This document shows positions 11,201 to 18,290 of a stretch of DNA of 21,305 bases, one piece after another. The notes beneath the pieces were generated by a model. That model did not search any database. It was not told the DNA's origin and saw only the letters and a program-made list of their open reading frames with translations. Origin of the DNA: a virus; the IMG/VR virus record IMGVR_UViG_3300027747_001414, positions 1 through 21,305 of that record, one strand, 5' to 3'. Numbering within the stretch: position 1 is the stretch's first letter; each line of letters starts with the position of its first letter. The position numbers and the translations under genes are program-made.

Positions 11201-11233
11201 AACCCCGGCCCGCAAGGTTCCGGGGTTTTTTTT
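11201..11233 (+). terminator. orphan plus-strand terminator
   Basis: AACCCCGG (11201-11208) and CCGGGGTT (11220-11227) form an 8-bp stem with an 11-base loop, followed by an unbroken run of T to 11233. There is no U-tract in the minus direction. No plus-strand protein gene lies within several kilobases upstream, so it must end either a short RNA from the 11100-11147 promoter or antisense readthrough from the late region. Confidence 0.88.
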
Positions 11234-12418: not shown

Positions 12419-12616
12419 CCGCGCCAATGCTAGCGATAGCCAAAAGCACGCTGAAACATCCAGCTATATATATATACTTAAGAAACTAGTTATATATATA
12501 TGTACGTGTATTTACGTACGTACACTTGGCAAAACTATCTATTAGGGGGGGCTAGTAGTACCTCAAAATAGCTGGATGTTTAAGGCTGCAACTAGCCAAA
12601 GCTAGCATTGGCGCGG
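12419..12616. repeat. 198-bp imperfect palindrome with AT-rich core
   Basis: The outer arms CCGCGCCAATGCTAGC (12419-12434) and its reverse complement (12601-12616) are perfect over 16 bp. The inner arms AAACATCCAGCTAT (12454-12467) and reverse complement (12568-12581) are perfect over 14 bp. The 19-nt gaps between arms are equal, and the exact centre (12517.5) is the centre of TACGTACGTA (12513-12522). The interior carries runs of TATATATATA. No protein gene fits here. A replication origin, the remains of a once-perfect inverted duplication, or a large RNA hairpin are possible. I see no target-site duplication. Confidence 0.8.
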
Positions 12617-12641: not shown

Positions 12642-12720
12642 CACCTATCTAGAACCGTGGTCGGTTTCATAATGTGGAACCACTTTAGACAGGGTACAAT
12701 ATGTACGTAAGAGATAGGTG
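12642..12720 (+). promoter_or_regulatory. candidate promoter inside an inverted repeat
   Basis: TACAAT at 12695-12700 is a good -10 match, embedded in a small palindrome GTACA-ATA-TGTAC (12694-12706); no convincing -35 lies 16-18 bases upstream. The region is bracketed by a 9-bp inverted repeat, CACCTATCT (12642-12650) and AGATAGGTG (12712-12720). The right copy overlaps the following GTG...CAC palindrome. This would be the natural promoter site for the gene cluster starting at 12796. Confidence 0.4.
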
Positions 12721-12737
12721 AGTCACGTTGACTCACC
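12717..12737. repeat. GTG...CAC palindrome, single-copy variant
   Basis: GGTGAGTCA (12717-12725) and TGACTCACC (12729-12737) are perfect 9-bp arms around CGT. It shares with types A and B the outer GTG/CAC and the inner CA/TG but has a different middle. It is immediately followed by the first CCGTCT-loop element. Confidence 0.9.
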
Positions 12738-12738
12738 A

Positions 12739-12767
12739 ACGGTTCGCGGCGTGCCGTCTCACGCCGC
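12739..12767 (+). promoter_or_regulatory. CCGTCT-loop pseudoknot element, copy 1
   Basis: ACGG (12739-12742) is followed by stem GCGGCGTG (12746-12753), loop CCGTCT (12754-12759) and CACGCCGC (12760-12767). The upstream ACGG can pair with CCGT of the loop to make an H-type pseudoknot. The following bases, ACTTGTAACGAGGA, resemble those after the other copies. It lies 28 nt before the 62-aa gene's ATG and directly follows a GTG...CAC palindrome. Confidence 0.85.
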
Positions 12768-12795
12768 ACTTGTAACGAGGATGAAGGAGATAGAT

Positions 12796-12984
12796 ATGAC
12801 ACATAGTGTTATCAAGACAGAGCAGCTAGCACGTCTACGTGCACTGCGTAATGAGATCGCCAAGCGCACAAACTACGAGCGCAACGAACGCTTGCGCAAA
12901 CAAGCACAGGCCGAGGAGATCATCGGCTATTGGGAGGGCTACACCGCCAAGGTATCCCGCCGCACAGGAAGGGGTGCACGATGA
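12796..12984 (+). CDS. small basic helical protein
   Basis: This 62-aa protein begins MTHSVIKTEQLARLRALRNE, is almost wholly alpha-helical and Arg/Lys-rich (KRTNYERNERLRKQAQAEEI), and ends in a basic tail. The frame extends upstream through the pseudoknot element to 12718, but the ATG at 12796 has GAAGGAGA properly spaced and is preferred. It opens a cluster of five short genes, and its stop overlaps the next start as ATGA. A nucleic-acid-binding role is possible from charge; no family recognised. Confidence 0.75.
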   Translation: MTHSVIKTEQLARLRALRNEIAKRTNYERNERLRKQAQAEEIIGYWEGYTAKVSRRTGRGAR

Positions 12985-13238
12985 GAACATGGGAAGAATT
13001 TAAGCGCTTCCACAGCGACAGGCCGTTCTATGGGTGCGTTGCACCTGACGGCACATGGTTCGACTCAGGCGCGTACTTCACGACCGCCGTGCACTGGTGC
13101 GCTGGTAAGGCAGGGGAGTTCGGCCTGAGTCCGGCGCAAGAGATGGAGTGGATGGCAACCAAGGGCATGGAGTTGGGCTACTCAATTATCCACAGCACCA
13201 TGCTGAAACAAATGTACGAGAAAGGACTCATCGCATGA
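12981..13238 (+). CDS. small protein of unknown function
   Basis: This 85-aa protein begins MRTWEEFKRFHSDRPFYGCV, with aromatic-rich sequence (APDGTWFDSGAYFTTAVHWC) and a helical C-terminal half (AQEMEWMATKGMELGYSIIH). Two Cys are present but not in a metal-site spacing. No family recognised. Its start overlaps the previous stop and its stop overlaps the next start, both as ATGA, so translation is coupled through the cluster. It has no strong ribosome site of its own. Confidence 0.78.
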   Translation: MRTWEEFKRFHSDRPFYGCVAPDGTWFDSGAYFTTAVHWCAGKAGEFGLSPAQEMEWMATKGMELGYSIIHSTMLKQMYEKGLIA

Positions 13239-13366
13239 AGTACACGCTGGAACCCGCCCAATCAGGGTGGAAGGTCACCAACTACGCGGGGCAAGCCCGC
13301 ACATTCGCAAAGCTATGGCTCGCGCTCTCATACATCGAGAAGCAGCTAAGCCGCGACAACGATTAA
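13235..13366 (+). CDS. 43-aa protein in the coupled cluster
   Basis: The short protein begins MKYTLEPAQSGWKVTNYAGQ and ends YIEKQLSRDND. The pattern looks like a beta-beta-alpha minidomain. The ATG overlaps the preceding stop (ATGA), and AAAGGA nine bases upstream can serve as ribosome site. A 16-nt gap with a strong ribosome site leads to the next gene. Function unknown. Confidence 0.72.
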   Translation: MKYTLEPAQSGWKVTNYAGQARTFAKLWLALSYIEKQLSRDND

Positions 13367-13382
13367 CCATAGGAGAAACCAA

Positions 13383-13622
13383 ATGAAAATCAAACCCGAA
13401 CACCTAGCGCACATACGCGACGCCATAGCCACACTCGACACGGACTTCCATCGCTCACGCTATGCGGCGGCAGGGCTGTCCACCAAACGCTACCAGTGGG
13501 ACATGCTGTATCAGGCAGGACTCACGCCGTGGATTTGCGACACGCTCTACAAGTACATGGACGACACCCACATCCAGACCGCGCTCAATCGACTCATCAA
13601 ACCACTAGGAGAAACCAAATGA
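13383..13622 (+). CDS. small phage protein, MKIKPEH type
   Basis: This 79-aa protein begins MKIKPEHLAHIRDAIATLDT and continues with TKRYQWDMLYQAGLTPWICD, then DTLYKYMDDTHIQTALNRLI. The alternating helices and the RYxWDxLxxA segment are familiar from small proteins in many phage early regions, all uncharacterised. The ribosome site is strong (ATAGGAGAAACCAA). Its stop overlaps the next ATG as ATGA. Role unknown. Confidence 0.82.
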   Translation: MKIKPEHLAHIRDAIATLDTDFHRSRYAAAGLSTKRYQWDMLYQAGLTPWICDTLYKYMDDTHIQTALNRLIKPLGETK

Positions 13623-13870
13623 CAGCACTCACAACCCCCGAGCAGATTGCGACCTACCGACTGGCCGCGCTGCGCACCGCCCTCAAACTGGAGCTGCGCG
13701 GACTACACATGAGCAAGGGCGCGACAGCGTACTCCATCCTGCGCAAGGAGTACGGATACAAAGGAAAGCGCGAAGCTGTGCTTGCACAGGTGACCGCCGA
13801 TGTGGAGGCCATCCTTGCAGAGATGGGCGCAGAGGGATCGGTCATGGTCTCGCCACAGGCGCAGGCCTGA
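13619..13870 (+). CDS. small helical protein of unknown function
   Basis: This 83-aa protein begins MTALTTPEQIATYRLAALRT. It is helical and basic in the middle (LKLELRGLHMSKGATAYSIL, then RKEYGYKGKREAVLAQVTAD), with an acidic C-terminal helix. The start is set by the ATGA overlap and an AGGAGAAACCAA ribosome site lying in the end of the previous gene. It closes the five-gene cluster, followed 16 nt later by a type A palindrome. A DNA-binding role is possible but unsupported by a clear motif. Confidence 0.78.
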   Translation: MTALTTPEQIATYRLAALRTALKLELRGLHMSKGATAYSILRKEYGYKGKREAVLAQVTADVEAILAEMGAEGSVMVSPQAQA

Positions 13871-13886
13871 CGGGTGTCAGAAACAA

Positions 13887-13904
13887 GTGGGACATTTGTC
13901 CCAC
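13887..13904. repeat. GTG...CAC palindrome, type A copy 3
   Basis: Arms GTGGGACA and TGTCCCAC, identical to copies 1 and 2, with TT as spacer. It lies between the end of the five-gene cluster and the second CCGTCT-loop element, four bases before the latter's CGG. Confidence 0.9.
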
Positions 13905-13908
13905 CTAT

Positions 13909-13936
13909 CGGTTAGCGGCGTGCCGTCTCACGCCGC
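13909..13936 (+). promoter_or_regulatory. CCGTCT-loop pseudoknot element, copy 2
   Basis: The hairpin GCGGCGTG / CCGTCT / CACGCCGC (13915-13936) is identical in stem and loop to copy 1. The upstream strand is TCGG rather than ACGG, so only CGG (13909-13911) can pair with the loop CCG. It is followed by ACTAGCAACTAGGAGAAAGC and the ATG of the 89-aa gene 22 nt later. Confidence 0.85.
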
Positions 13937-13958
13937 ACTAGCAACTAGGAGAAAGCAA

Positions 13959-14228
13959 ATGAAATCATACGAACAACGACAGGCATACGCCCTACTGGAG
14001 AAAGAAGCCGCGCCGCACGTGGTGCTTGCGTTCGCACAAGGGTACATCTCTGCGCGGAAGTACGCCGACCTGCCGGAGGTGAATGCCCGCGTCAACTACA
14101 GGGGGTTCACGTTCCACTTTGTGGGGTGCGACTTAGGTGACGGCATCGAGGAGAACGGGCTGTGCGTCCAAGTGTTCCCGCGTGAGGGTGCAGAGGTGCT
14201 CTATGAGTTCTCGGTGCAAGTTCAATAA
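13959..14228 (+). CDS. small protein of unknown function
   Basis: This 89-aa protein begins MKSYEQRQAYALLEKEAAPH. A helical N-terminal half (VVLAFAQGYISARKYADLPE) is followed by beta-type sequence (RVNYRGFTFHFVGCDLGDGI, then LCVQVFPREGAEVLYEFSVQ). No family recognised. The frame is open far upstream through the regulatory element, but the ATG at 13959 has the strong ACTAGGAGAAAGCAA start context. The next gene begins 15 nt after its stop. Confidence 0.78.
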   Translation: MKSYEQRQAYALLEKEAAPHVVLAFAQGYISARKYADLPEVNARVNYRGFTFHFVGCDLGDGIEENGLCVQVFPREGAEVLYEFSVQVQ

Positions 14229-14243
14229 CCAAGGAGAAAGCAA

Positions 14244-14549
14244 ATGAAAGTAGTAACCAACACCGCTGGTTTCGGGCTGCGCTTGAACAGCGCAGAGATG
14301 CGTATGTTCTGCGCCTTGCGTGGGTGGGCACTCGGCTCACGTCCGAAACAAATATCAAGCACGACCACATGGTTTGTGGGGGTGGACTGGGTAGCGTTCC
14401 GTGCCGACCCTACCCTCGTGCGTTTGTGCGAGGAGGGAATGCTGTCCAACCCAGCGCTCGCTGTTGTTGAAGTGCCCGAGGATTGGGAGATTGATACCGA
14501 CTGGGACACGTACGAAAAACTTATTGGCGTAGTACGCCACGTCTACTAA
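14244..14549 (+). CDS. small protein of unknown function
   Basis: This 101-aa protein begins MKVVTNTAGFGLRLNSAEMR and includes CALRGWALGSRPKQ, an acidic segment EVPEDWEIDTDWDTYEKLIG and a short basic end. The motif-like FGLRLNSAEMR near the start may form a strand-turn-helix. No family recognised. AAGGAGAAAGCAA before the ATG is a strong ribosome site. It is the last gene before the B1 palindrome and the third CCGTCT-loop element. Confidence 0.8.
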   Translation: MKVVTNTAGFGLRLNSAEMRMFCALRGWALGSRPKQISSTTTWFVGVDWVAFRADPTLVRLCEEGMLSNPALAVVEVPEDWEIDTDWDTYEKLIGVVRHVY

Positions 14550-14560
14550 GAAACAAAACT

Positions 14561-14575
14561 GTGACACGGTGTCAC
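14561..14575. repeat. GTG...CAC palindrome, type B copy 1
   Basis: GTGACA, CGG and TGTCAC form a perfect inverted repeat. In RNA the stem extends outward to AACT...GGTT with one G-U pair, about 10 bp. It lies 11 nt after the previous stop and eight bases before the third CCGTCT-loop element. It is the reverse complement of copy 2 at 16325. Confidence 0.88.
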
Positions 14576-14582
14576 GGTTCCA

Positions 14583-14611
14583 ACGGTTAGCAGCCTGCCG
14601 TCTCAGGCTGC
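14583..14611 (+). promoter_or_regulatory. CCGTCT-loop pseudoknot element, copy 3
   Basis: ACGG (14583-14586), stem GCAGCCTG (14590-14597), loop CCGTCT (14598-14603), stem CAGGCTGC (14604-14611). Compared with copies 1 and 2, two stem positions have changed on both strands (G-C to A-T and G-C to C-G), so pairing is kept while the loop is unchanged. ACTTGCAACGAGGA follows, and the 562-aa gene starts 21 nt after the stem. Confidence 0.88.
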
Positions 14612-14632
14612 ACTTGCAACGAGGAAATAAAA

Positions 14633-16321
14633 ATGCTTAACTACAAAGCACAAGCAACCGCGCTCATCAACAAGCTGGAGATGTACGCACGTATCAACAG
14701 GTTCAGCGAGCAGCACAACGCGTTGCTGGAAACGCCGAATGACATAGCGGCGCTCGATCGACTGGAGTACGCCATCCGGCGTAGCAACAACAGCCGCACC
14801 GAGGACAACTATGTGTATGAGGTGTACTATTACTTCCGCAAGCTGGCGAGCTACGAGTGGACTGAGAGCGCATACTTCAACGAGATGCGGTCAAACTACG
14901 ACAGTCTCAACGCGTATCGCTTCCCGCCAGCCAGTAAGGTCAGGGCTGAGTTCGCGCTGCACCTTGAGGAGCGTAGCCGTGCGGCAGACCGCCCGCAGAC
15001 TCTTGTGAATACGCTGTCCCGCATCTTGTGCAAGCATCGTCCGTGGTTCAACCGCGAGTGGTGCAACAACAGCAGCATGCACCCTGCCGTGTACAAAGCG
15101 TGGGACTTGGCTTCGCCTGCCAACTGGCACCAGCTCGTGATGGAGTGGCCGCACGTATCCAAGCAAGGCGCACACATGGTGGCGTATACCCGTGACGACA
15201 AGTACGGCGAGGCCGACCGACAGCTTGTGCTGTCCGTGTCCAAGTATCTGACGCGCCACTTCCCTGCGCTCAACTCCAACGTCATCCGCGACATCAGCGG
15301 TATGTACACCGAGGCAGAGTTCGGTATCGTGCGTACCATGCCGGAGATGCTGGACATAATCGTCAATGGCCCGCCGTCTTGCATGAGCGGTGAGGACGAG
15401 GAGTTCGGTTCATCAGGCAACCGCCATCCTTACGAGGTGTACGACCCGTCTCTTGGCTGGCACATGGCATATGTCAGGGAGGGTGGCCGTTACTCGGGGC
15501 GTGCCTTGCTCAACGACAATATGTGGGTGCGGACGTATCGCCGCAAGGAATACTCGGACAACTACTCGGACACAGACGAGCGTCTCAACTCATGGCTGCG
15601 TGAGCAGGGCTACCGCAAGGCGGATGACTGGGTGGGTTTCTCGTTCAAGCGCATCAAGGTGAGCAACGACTGCGGGTTCCTTGCACCGTACTTGGACGGC
15701 GGCAACAAGGACGTAACCATTGACGGCAACACGCTGGAGATTGTGCGTAACGGTGACGGCGAGTACCGGTGCAATGAGACCAACGGGGATGCCGAGGAGC
15801 TTGAGGCTTGTACTTGCCCGCACTGCGGTGACCGCTGCGATGGGGACGATATGTTCAGCATCGGGTATCACGGTGACGATTCGGTGTGCCGTGGCTGCTA
15901 CGAGAACGATTTCACTACGGTGTACGGTCGCGGCGGCAGGGAGTATGCGGTGCCCAACGATGACGCCATCGAGGTCGATGGAGAGTATTACCACGCTAAC
16001 TGGATTGGCGACAACGGCATCGTGGAGTTGCATGACGGCGAGTATTGCTCCATTAATGACGCGGTGTACATCGAGAGTCAGGGCGAGCATTACCCGGCTG
16101 AGTCCGAGCTTATCTGCTACACACAGGACGGCGAGTACGAGCTGCGTGAGGACTGCGTAGAGCTGGAGAACGGCGAGTGGTGCCTTGAGGATGAGGCATG
16201 GCAGTGCGCCCATAGCGATGACTGGTACGCCAACGATGACGTGTCAGCAGTAGAGACAAAGTGCGGCAAGCATATCCACCCCGACCATGCAGAGCACTAC
16301 GTGCTTGTGACTGCCGAATAA
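14633..16321 (+). CDS. 562-aa protein with zinc ribbon and acidic Tyr/Glu repeats
   Basis: This is the longest right-half gene. Residues 1-200 are helical and basic/aromatic (YVYEVYYYFRKLASYEWTES). Around 249-340 a compact domain has CMSG, HPYEVYDPSLGWHMAYV and GRYSGRALLNDNMWVRTYRR. A probable zinc site follows at about 393-422 (CTCPHCGDRC, then CRGCYENDF). The remainder is made of short repeats pairing GEYY or GEYC with D/E-rich turns (for example LHDGEYCSINDAVYIESQGE). No catalytic motif is recognised; a DNA- or RNA-polymerase-interacting role would be guesswork. GAGGA precedes the ATG. Types B1 and B2 palindromes flank the gene on both sides. Confidence 0.85.
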   Translation: MLNYKAQATALINKLEMYARINRFSEQHNALLETPNDIAALDRLEYAIRRSNNSRTEDNYVYEVYYYFRKLASYEWTESAYFNEMRSNYDSLNAYRFPPASKVRAEFALHLEERSRAADRPQTLVNTLSRILCKHRPWFNREWCNNSSMHPAVYKAWDLASPANWHQLVMEWPHVSKQGAHMVAYTRDDKYGEADRQLVLSVSKYLTRHFPALNSNVIRDISGMYTEAEFGIVRTMPEMLDIIVNGPPSCMSGEDEEFGSSGNRHPYEVYDPSLGWHMAYVREGGRYSGRALLNDNMWVRTYRRKEYSDNYSDTDERLNSWLREQGYRKADDWVGFSFKRIKVSNDCGFLAPYLDGGNKDVTIDGNTLEIVRNGDGEYRCNETNGDAEELEACTCPHCGDRCDGDDMFSIGYHGDDSVCRGCYENDFTTVYGRGGREYAVPNDDAIEVDGEYYHANWIGDNGIVELHDGEYCSINDAVYIESQGEHYPAESELICYTQDGEYELREDCVELENGEWCLEDEAWQCAHSDDWYANDDVSAVETKCGKHIHPDHAEHYVLVTAE

Positions 16322-16324
16322 ACC

Positions 16325-16339
16325 GTGACACCGTGTCAC
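16325..16339. repeat. GTG...CAC palindrome, type B copy 2
   Basis: GTGACA, CCG and TGTCAC form perfect arms, starting 3 nt after the stop of the 562-aa gene and ending 21 nt before the peptidase gene. It is the exact reverse complement of B1. No CCGTCT-loop element follows here. Confidence 0.88.
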
Positions 16340-16360
16340 AGAAACAACAAAGGAACCACC

Positions 16361-17524
16361 ATGAAAAAGAAACAGACTATGGTCTACAAGACCTTGCAGC
16401 GTGCACTGAGCGTGATGCGCCCACACAACTCCGAGGGCAGCTTGATGTTCACGGCGTGGCTGATTGACCGACTGCCCGAGCGCCTACGTGACAACGCATG
16501 GCAAGACGTAGCGGGTAACGTGCACATCGACAACCGCAGACACAGCGACAACAAGACGCTGTTCGTAGCCCACGTGGACACCGTGCACCGCACGACTGGA
16601 GCCAACAAGATTCGCAAGACTACTTCGATGTGGTATGCGGACGGCGCAGCTTTGGGTGCGGATGATGGGGTGGGCTGTGCGCTGCTGATGCATATGATCC
16701 ACGCTGATGTGCCAGCGTACTACGTGTTCACCCAAGGCGAGGAGTGCGGCGGCATCGGTGCCAAGCACTTGGCCAAGCAGTATCCCAACTTGCTCGCTGA
16801 GTTTGACCGCGCCATTGCCTTCGACCGCCGTGGTACGGATAGCATCATCAGTCACCAAGGGTATGGGCGCTGCTGCTCCGATGCGTTTGCCGATGCGCTG
16901 GCTGCCGAGTTGAACGCGACCGATGAGGAGCTTATGTATTCGCCTGACAACACTGGCGTGTACACCGACACCGCCGAGTTCGTTGACATCATCCCCGAGT
17001 GCACCAATGTGTCGTGTGGTTATATGCACGAGCACAGCGACAAGGAGCAGCTCGACATGATTCACTTCGACCGACTGGCCGAGGCCGTGCTGGTCATTGA
17101 TTGGGATGCGCTTGTGACTGACCGCGACCCGACTATTCCTGACCCCGACGAGCTGCTCGTGGGCAACAAGTGGTGGTACAACTACAAGGACGATGCAAGC
17201 AAGTGGGACACAAGCAAGTGGGGCTCGCCTACCAACCTTAACCTTGATGCCGCCATCATGACGTGGGGCACTGATGACGTGGGCTTGCTCGATGCCGATG
17301 AGTATCTGTACGAGTGCCTGCTCGATGCGCGGCAGGGGTTCATGACCAACCTGATCGAGTTGATATCCGAGTCGGTGTACCCCGAGGAACCACACCTTGC
17401 ACGCAAGTACATCAAGCGCAGCAAGCTGACAGATGACGTCATCACGATGGCGATGGGCATGGTCGGGCACAACAGCACAGACGATATTTTGAACACGCTG
17501 TTCGACATGGCGTACGTAGAGTAA
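16361..17524 (+). CDS. M28/M20-type zinc metallopeptidase
   Basis: This 387-aa protein carries the ordered metal ligands of co-catalytic zinc exopeptidases: HVDTVH (His about 71, Asp about 73), GADDGVG (bridging Asp about 101), QGEECGG (catalytic and metal Glu about 127-128), FDRRGTD (Asp about 155) and MHEHSDKEQ (His about 223-225). Spacing fits aminopeptidase, carboxypeptidase or deacylase relatives. A 140-residue acidic, Trp/Tyr-rich C-terminal part (DELLVGNKWWYNYKDDASKW) is extra and unrecognised. There is no signal peptide, so it acts in the cytoplasm. AAAGGAACC precedes the ATG at 16361; a GTG at 16325 inside the palindrome is unlikely. Substrate unknown. Confidence 0.88.
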   Translation: MKKKQTMVYKTLQRALSVMRPHNSEGSLMFTAWLIDRLPERLRDNAWQDVAGNVHIDNRRHSDNKTLFVAHVDTVHRTTGANKIRKTTSMWYADGAALGADDGVGCALLMHMIHADVPAYYVFTQGEECGGIGAKHLAKQYPNLLAEFDRAIAFDRRGTDSIISHQGYGRCCSDAFADALAAELNATDEELMYSPDNTGVYTDTAEFVDIIPECTNVSCGYMHEHSDKEQLDMIHFDRLAEAVLVIDWDALVTDRDPTIPDPDELLVGNKWWYNYKDDASKWDTSKWGSPTNLNLDAAIMTWGTDDVGLLDADEYLYECLLDARQGFMTNLIELISESVYPEEPHLARKYIKRSKLTDDVITMAMGMVGHNSTDDILNTLFDMAYVE

Positions 17525-17533
17525 GGAACGGCT

Positions 17534-17749
17534 ATGAAACCGTGCACCATGTGCCCATGCAAGCCAACCACGCCCGAACTGCACAGGCTAATTGTGCGTT
17601 CGCGAATGGAGGAGATCGCCGCTTCCGGCGGTTTCCCATGCCACGAAAAACACCCAACAGAACACGCACTGAGCGACACAGCACTTGACGCAAACGGCGT
17701 GTACAAGCACACCGACTGCGCCGGATTCAAACTGTGGGGTCTGAAGTAA
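17534..17749 (+). CDS. small Cys-rich protein, DUF6283-like pattern
   Basis: This 71-aa protein begins MKPCTMCPCKPTTPELHRLI. The Cys/His pattern CxxCxC, then GGFPCHEKHP and TDCAGFKLW recalls the CxxCPW...FxCH...CAG layout of DUF6283-type phage proteins, which probably bind zinc or an Fe-S cluster. The match is by memory and imperfect. AAGGAACGG precedes the ATG, 9 nt after the peptidase stop, so it is probably in the same transcript. Directly after its stop comes the fourth CCGTCT-loop element. Confidence 0.75.
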   Translation: MKPCTMCPCKPTTPELHRLIVRSRMEEIAASGGFPCHEKHPTEHALSDTALDANGVYKHTDCAGFKLWGLK

Positions 17750-17752
17750 GGA

Positions 17753-17780
17753 ACGGTCATCCCCGTGCCGTCTCACGGGG
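17753..17780 (+). promoter_or_regulatory. CCGTCT-loop pseudoknot element, copy 4
   Basis: ACGG (17753-17756), stem CCCCGTG (17761-17767), loop CCGTCT (17768-17773), stem CACGGGG (17774-17780). The stem differs from copies 1 to 3 at several positions on both strands with pairing preserved; the inner GTG/CAC, the loop and the upstream ACGG are unchanged. It lies 3 nt after one gene's stop and 19 nt before the next ATG. No GTG...CAC palindrome precedes this copy. Confidence 0.88.
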
Positions 17781-17799
17781 AATTCTTAGGAGAAGTGAA

Positions 17800-17976
17800 A
17801 TGAAAAAGAAACGCTGGACATACAAGGTCTATTACGCAGGACGCTTCGTTGCGTCATTCACATCGAGGGTCAAGGCGCGGGAGTTTATGCAGAACATGAC
17901 CGACTTCGATGTGCCCTTCATCATCACGCCCGACATAGCAAACCAAACCCCTTACATGATAGGAGAACTGAAATGA
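17800..17976 (+). CDS. 58-aa basic protein
   Basis: The protein begins MKKKRWTYKVYYAGRFVASF and has a beta-hairpin-like start, a helix with SRVKAREFMQNMTD and a hydrophobic stretch VPFIITPDIANQTPYMIGEL. No family recognised. TTAGGAGAAGTGAA precedes the ATG at 17800; an earlier in-frame ATG at 17734 lies inside the previous gene and is rejected. The gene opens the run of overlapping genes that ends near 20171, and its stop overlaps the next ATG as ATGA. Confidence 0.75.
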   Translation: MKKKRWTYKVYYAGRFVASFTSRVKAREFMQNMTDFDVPFIITPDIANQTPYMIGELK

Positions 17977-18290
17977 AAGTAAAGACGAGTGAACTGACCG
18001 GAGCCGCCCTCGACTGGGCTGTGGCTAAGTGTGAAGTGGGCGCTGAATTTATCGGTGATATTGACGATCCACATTTTTATTCAACCGACTGGGCACAAGG
18101 CGGGCCAATCATTGAGCGGGAGGGTATAGGTATTGATCGCGATGACCAAGACGTTTGGTTTGCAAGCCACGATCTATCCGCTGAGACGGCATGGGGCGCA
18201 ACAGGCGCAACACCCCTCATCGCAGCCATGCGCTGCTACGTTGCGTCCAAGCTGGGCGCTGATATTGAAATACCAAAGGAGTTGAAATGA
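17973..18290 (+). CDS. ninX: NinX-like protein (DUF2591)
   Basis: This 105-aa protein begins MKVKTSELTGAALDWAVAKC and ends MRCYVASKLGADIEIPKEL. That opening (TSELTGxALDWAVAKC), the central GGPIIEREGIGI and the closing TPLIAAMRCYVASKLGxxIEIP are the hallmarks of the phage NinX/DUF2591 family, of unknown biochemical role; lambdoid relatives lie in ninR-type early regions. Length is normal for the family and the domain is complete. ATAGGAGAACTGAA precedes the ATG, and both ends overlap neighbours by 4 nt. Confidence 0.92.
   Translation: MKVKTSELTGAALDWAVAKCEVGAEFIGDIDDPHFYSTDWAQGGPIIEREGIGIDRDDQDVWFASHDLSAETAWGATGATPLIAAMRCYVASKLGADIEIPKELK

Follow-up and report, generated by a model that had tools for sequence, protein, structure and literature searches.

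The window analysed here, the 21,305 nucleotides (nt) of IMG/VR virus record IMGVR_UViG_3300027747_001414 (a 21.3-kb record of an uncultured phage, a virus of bacteria), contains four copies of a 28-nt RNA element that is predicted to form an H-type pseudoknot upstream of start codons. The element folds, as covariation establishes; its spacing to the start codon is restricted, it occurs in multiple copies clustered on one strand, and it serves a variety of genes. We propose that it could be a shared translation-start control element in which the conserved junction of its two stems is a docking site for a trans-acting factor, a reading to which we give a probability of about 0.4. In the window, all four copies lie on the + strand as 8-base-pair (bp) hairpins with the loop CCGTCT, with CGGT[T/C]N directly 5' of the hairpin and a start codon 18-28 nt 3' of it (S1a, upstream pseudoknot strand; S2a and S2b, arms of the hairpin stem):

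12740-12767, + strand: copy 1, with S1a 12740-12742, S2a 12746-12753, loop 12754-12759 and S2b 12760-12767; stem GCGGCGTG/CACGCCGC, with CGG pairing to CCG over the stem; serves a 62-amino-acid gene, start 12796.
13909-13936, + strand: copy 2, with S1a 13909-13911, S2a 13915-13922, loop 13923-13928 and S2b 13929-13936; serves an 89-amino-acid gene, start 13959.
14584-14611, + strand: copy 3, with S1a 14584-14586, S2a 14590-14597, loop 14598-14603 and S2b 14604-14611; stem GCAGCCTG/CAGGCTGC; serves a 562-amino-acid gene at 14633-16321.
17754-17781, + strand: copy 4, with S1a 17754-17756, S2a 17760-17767, loop 17768-17773 and S2b 17774-17781; stem TCCCCGTG/CACGGGGA; serves a 58-amino-acid gene, start 17800; no palindromic hairpin precedes it.

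A first-pass annotation of the window had reported four hairpins with differing, matched stems, each 19-28 nt before a start codon at the head of a gene cluster. All four copies are where it placed them, to within 1 nt, and every stem difference is compensated, but copies 1 and 2 are identical in the stem, so that the window alone provides three stem sequences. The stem of copy 4, given there as a 7-letter arm, has 8 pairs (TCCCCGTG). Measured from the end of the stem, the start codons of copies 1-4 are 28, 22, 21 and 18 nt away, which places copy 4 just below the reported range; copy 1 does head a gene cluster, but copies 2-4 are intercistronic and follow soon after the preceding stop codon (for copy 4, only 4 nt after it). 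Covariance-model E-values for the window copies, which helped to define the model, are 2e-11 to 2e-8, and these values, together with the further copies in dozens of other contigs, exclude a chance origin. Minimum-free-energy z-scores computed without pseudoknots are mixed (-0.2, -3.5, -3.0 and -0.3 for copies 1-4) and are no proof alone. A fifth TGCCGTCTCA, at 18182-18191 on the - strand, is a chance match with no stem, a - strand geometry match near 11212 is a plain 8-bp hairpin, and a geometry scan of the late strand of the window gave no copies.

Relatives were gathered by pattern scans of IMG/VR in which the fixed parts were varied, and from terminase-guided loci (L-numbers, such as L127 and L309, denote the related loci or contigs retrieved). 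The resulting core set comprises 73 distinct copies linked to a ribosome-binding site in uncultured phage contigs, a few entries being fragments of the window, and the covariance-model search that the first-pass annotation had suggested likewise found further copies in other IMG/VR phage contigs. In a covariation alignment of 29 distinct sequences, 99.7% of cells are paired, both-sided changes occur at seven pairs (six in the eight-pair stem, plus the middle pair of the pseudoknot), and the covariation score is reached by none of 500 shuffles; shifting the partner by 1-3 columns abolishes the signal. The RNA structure earlier proposed from the matched stem changes is thus borne out. We conclude from these comparisons that the element is a real RNA structure, a small knotted fold that is kept while its letters change.

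Because related sequences inflate covariation counts, we added an alignment-independent test of the pseudoknot pairing (S1), a scan with TNNGCNGCNTGNNNNCTCANGCNGC that leaves both S1 strands free and has 102 distinct matches among the retrieved loci. An intact stem, a Shine-Dalgarno sequence and a start codon were present in 49 of the 102, and S1 was complementary in all 49 (48 CGG:CCG and one GGG:CCC) versus 1 of the remaining 53 matches (Fisher P about 1e-28, with the 49 elements non-independent, most sharing one sequence by descent). The contrast between 49/49 and 1/53 indicates that CGG and CCG belong together. Compensated variants of S1 were observed as well: GGG:CCC in two L309 copies, between whose stems one pair differs in a compensated way; CAG:CTG, with the stem GAGGGTG/CACCCTC, in L127, L148, L150, L163, L171, L198 and L199, most of these seven core-set contigs also carrying CGG:CCG copies; and TCG:CGA in L228, the orthologous leader in L239 having CGG:CCG. 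Non-CCG pseudoknots were first tested loosely, with a weak result (25 found vs. 13.5 by shuffling, maximum 24), and with at least four pairs required there were nine vs. 1.5 (maximum 6 of 1000), several of the nine being related copies. The sequence data strongly support an H-type pseudoknot. The four-pair ACGG:CCGT helix of the first-pass annotation accordingly stands for its three CGG:CCG pairs, through the free-S1 scan and the compensatory variants; its fourth pair, A with T, shows no covariation and is unsupported, because most copies with the loop CCGACT retain the upstream A. Distant leaders with the same topology (ACCG:CGGT in L277 and L249, AACCG:CGGTT in L279, ACCA:TGGT in L245) were excluded from the members and may be analogues or relatives.

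The consensus layout is 5'-S1a(3)-L1(3)-S2a(8)-S1b(3)-L3(3)-S2b(8)-3', 28 nt in all, with S1 being 3 bp (CGG:CCG), L1 being U-Y-N, S2 being 8 bp and L3 being about 3 nt. Near-invariant residues cluster at the S1/S2 junction (G3-C15, G14-C21, U13-A22, and U4 of L1), and the geometry makes it plausible that a U4.A22-U13 major-groove triple explains the invariant letters. The order of modules is stop codon, optional palindromic hairpin, H-type pseudoknot, Shine-Dalgarno sequence, start codon. The distance from the end of the pseudoknot is 17-23 nt to the ATG in 54 of 61 distinct leaders and 4-11 nt to the Shine-Dalgarno sequence in 55 of the 61; the CAG:CTG subclass lies 29-35 nt from the start codon. 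A weak third hairpin can be drawn in the linker 3' of the stem, for example at 12768-12780 (CTAG-CAA-CTAG) and 13937-13949 (CTTG-TAA-CGAG), and overlaps the first bases of the Shine-Dalgarno sequence in many leaders, not all.

Closely 5' of copies 1-3 we found palindromic hairpins that the first-pass annotation had overlooked, and the window has a fourth such palindrome that is not accompanied by a pseudoknot:

12717-12737, + strand: palindromic hairpin before copy 1, GGTGAGTCA-CGT-TGACTCACC (sequence and palindrome scan).
13887-13904, + strand: palindromic hairpin before copy 2, GTGGGACA-TT-TGTCCCAC (palindrome scan).
14557-14579, + strand: palindromic hairpin before copy 3, core GTGACAC-G-GTGTCAC (palindrome scan).
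16325-16339, + strand: palindrome with no pseudoknot, GTGACAC-C-GTGTCAC, between the 562-amino-acid gene and a peptidase gene.

Across copies these palindromes are 7-11 bp long and differ in their letters with pairing retained, and the spacer separating palindrome and pseudoknot is often A-rich. A perfect palindrome of at least 7 bp is absent from 28 of the 73 core-set copies. The distance from the preceding stop codon to S1a is often 20-24 nt with a palindrome and often 4-13 nt with none, with a tail of longer distances.

In a scan that left the loop free, CCGTCT and CCGACT were the only loops of elements whose stem was intact and which had a start codon; the covariance model adds the loops CCGTTCT, CCGTTT, CCGCAT and CCGAC, with CGG upstream in all. 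Each of the fifteen contigs searched over their whole length has 1-4 copies, which cluster and never occur on both strands. The proteins encoded downstream fall into 26 unrelated clusters, and the element therefore appears to serve gene expression in general, not one pathway. Copies of the same contig resemble one another only between about -20 and +30 relative to the loop, similarity outside that stretch being random, from which it follows that they are modules, not gene duplications. With the patterns used, which limit the search to the letters fixed in them, 84,980 bacterial and archaeal genomes yielded no copy, and neither did named phages in a short DNA search under the same limit. The first 50 kb of each of DSL-LC04, 023Pt_psg01 and HTVC027P, and 20 kb of each of KpV48, Pasto and MA2, gave no significant covariance-model match and no convincing geometry match. 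Rfam 15 has no match at or above gathering score at the window elements or at nine loci with related or variant elements, in agreement with the earlier statement that this is not a known RNA family. The element appears to be previously unlisted, and we propose it as a new RNA family.

The conserved junction, the restricted spacing to the start codon and a Shine-Dalgarno sequence left free together suggest that the element is read as translation initiates, and probably by a factor bound to it. According to this hypothesis, the pseudoknot would sit at the upstream edge of the footprint of the initiating ribosome, leaving the Shine-Dalgarno sequence free; the S1/S2 junction would dock a putative trans-acting factor, namely an RNA-binding protein of phage or host; and the factor, bound beside the ribosome-binding site, would jointly set how far several unrelated early genes are translated, giving a small post-transcriptional regulon. 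The effect of the factor would probably be shut-off, and the optional upstream palindrome might protect the 3' end of a messenger RNA (mRNA) or provide separation from the preceding gene. In a bolder version, which we hold to be less probable, one phage-coded protein would read the repeated H-type pseudoknot as an aptamer and switch the whole early set at translation, and the element would be a new phage RNA class. Several points weigh against factor docking. The factor is hypothetical, and conservation of the junction could serve the stability of the fold alone. Phylogenetic dependence inflates the counts, since most copies come from related phages and CGG:CCG is common by descent. The orthologous leaders of L232 and L240 keep the hairpin, but there AGG vs. 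CCG breaks one pseudoknot pair. The scans behind the collection fixed parts of the stem (GCNGC, TG/CA), and diversity outside those letters is undersampled.

The closest working analogue is the gene 32 operator of phages T4, T2 and RB69, an mRNA-leader pseudoknot bound by gp32 (PMC535899, PMC3014915). Both are leader pseudoknots of about 28 nt upstream of a Shine-Dalgarno sequence in double-stranded DNA phages, and in both the structure is kept despite sequence drift; for the present element, the pseudoknot and its placement follow from covariation and position. The gene 32 operator, however, is present in one copy before the repressor's own gene, whereas here 1-4 copies precede unrelated genes, and no link between the element and a binder's own gene was found. 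It also has a long UUAAA-rich unstructured stretch before the start codon, whereas here the distance is mostly 17-23 nt, and the linkers that join pseudoknot and start contain no unstructured UUAAA/UAAA-rich tract exceeding 40 nt. That the element simply shields the ribosome-binding site from the sequence 5' of it was considered and is disfavoured, because the predicted accessibility of the site barely changes (mean 0.58 with the element, 0.56 with the element shuffled and 0.61 with the element removed) and no useful effect is predicted.

We rank factor docking first and a role in mRNA processing or protection, which is possible at somewhat lower probability, second. In the latter, messages would be cut between palindrome and pseudoknot; the pseudoknot would then cap the 5' end of one product and the palindrome the 3' end of the other, giving every early gene a stable mRNA of its own, constitutively and with no dedicated factor. 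The order of stop codon, palindrome and pseudoknot, the distances from stop codon to S1a and the frequent A-rich spacer between the two structures fit such an arrangement, as do the leaders of L228-L243, in which the structured leader probably is the 5' end of the message because it starts right after a TATAAT-like -10 box; it is this conserved structure at probable 5' ends, with a palindrome after the stop codon, that suggests protection or processing. More than a third of the copies (the 28 of 73), however, have no perfect palindrome, the near-invariance of S1 and of the junction exceeds what a generic cap needs, and the cleavage step is hypothetical.

Several early leaders (L228, L232, L236, L239, L240 and L243) begin directly after the TATAAT-like box and have a G+C stem and a T run directly 5' of the Shine-Dalgarno sequence, an arrangement that looks like a terminator before an early gene. 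A T run follows the stem only in L228-L243 and in the first copy of L307/L309, and the four window copies have none, so that they lack the makeup of an intrinsic terminator, a G+C-rich hairpin with T residues directly after it. A transcriptional element in the early transcript, either a put/nut-like antitermination site or an attenuator, is improbable: these T runs speak for it, and two neighbouring RNA structures close to early promoters, seen in some relatives, recall HK022 put, but T runs are absent from the window copies and from most relatives, several copies occur within a single gene cluster, and the spacing is tied to the start codon, not to a promoter. The put RNA of HK022 likewise places two RNA structures side by side in early phage transcripts; it is about 70 nt long, with two stem-loops and a triple helix, and occurs once per early transcript downstream of the promoter (PMC9378689), whereas the palindrome and H-type pseudoknot described here keep to the start codon and recur within a gene cluster.

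Still less probable is that the element is mainly a recombination module, a repeated intergenic sequence by which phages shuffle early gene cassettes among themselves, a role that has been proposed for the PeSLs of T4-like phages. Near-identical modules with sharp boundaries do stand before unrelated genes, but compensatory changes in stem and pseudoknot point to RNA pairing, rather than DNA identity, as what is selected, and shuffling may be a side effect rather than the function. PeSLs are reported to consist of an early promoter plus a terminator stem-loop, in a repeated regulatory intergenic module between small early genes (Arbiol 2010 and Comeau 2014, as cited in PMC4503421); by comparison, most copies here have a pseudoknot and a Shine-Dalgarno sequence but no evident promoter or terminator, as judged by eye from the upstream sequence. 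In preQ1-I riboswitches, which resemble the element in being very small H-type pseudoknots near a Shine-Dalgarno sequence, the loop pairs with the 3' tail, whereas the pairing partner of the loop here is the 5' flank, the Shine-Dalgarno sequence is outside the fold, the downstream genes are unrelated and Rfam returns no match. A small-molecule riboswitch with its pocket at the S1/S2 junction is the least probable alternative, since the compact fold, invariant junction residues and nearby Shine-Dalgarno sequence are offset by 26 unrelated downstream gene clusters with no evident metabolic theme, by the nearly unchanged predicted accessibility and by the absence of copies from bacterial genomes with the patterns tried.

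A 2010 review considered the T4 gene 32 pseudoknot to be perhaps the sole viral example in translation autoregulation (PMC3014915). If factor docking at translation initiation is correct, the present element would be a second phage leader pseudoknot, but a modular and multi-gene one, in an uncultured phage group. Covariation defines it sufficiently for an RNA family; it serves as a marker of early gene clusters in metagenomes, and its small size suits simple reporter testing. If the bolder version holds, we know of no earlier multi-gene pseudoknot regulon in a virus.

The left side of the window carries, on the - strand, a structural block with terminase, portal and major head protein genes, and the + strand from 12.7 kb carries a cluster of mostly small genes. 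Among named phages, the closest TerL proteins are those of 023Pt_psg01, HTVC027P, DSL-LC04 and HTVC023P (48-52% identity). The pair formed by the 562-amino-acid gene and the peptidase gene is also found in the early region of Autographiviridae such as KpV48, Pasto and MA2, and this gene order supports our calling the + strand cluster an early region. A family search on the four genes downstream of the window copies gave no match, with no single-strand-binding protein gene recognised, and a search with the peptidase found a single relative.

Among the terminase relatives, L246, L248, L272, L282, L288 and L292 have a second recurrent class of leader, with a palindrome, a hairpin of mostly 9-11 bp whose 5-nt loop is G-rich (AGAGG, CGAGT, GTGAG), and a T/C-rich stretch such as TTTCTTTTCCTGTCC between hairpin and Shine-Dalgarno sequence; this class may be a second structured family. 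Shortly 3' of the copy-4 gene, 17973-18290 (+ strand) has a strong Pfam Phage_P22_NinX match (E 4e-21). Two tRNA genes at Rfam gathering score, 2583-2652 and 2676-2750 on the - strand, lie inside the structural block. Between the divergent gene blocks, the AT-rich intergenic region at 12440-12600 contains TA runs and the long inverted repeat AAACATCCAGCTAT ... ATAGCTGGATGTTT and is a possible replication origin.

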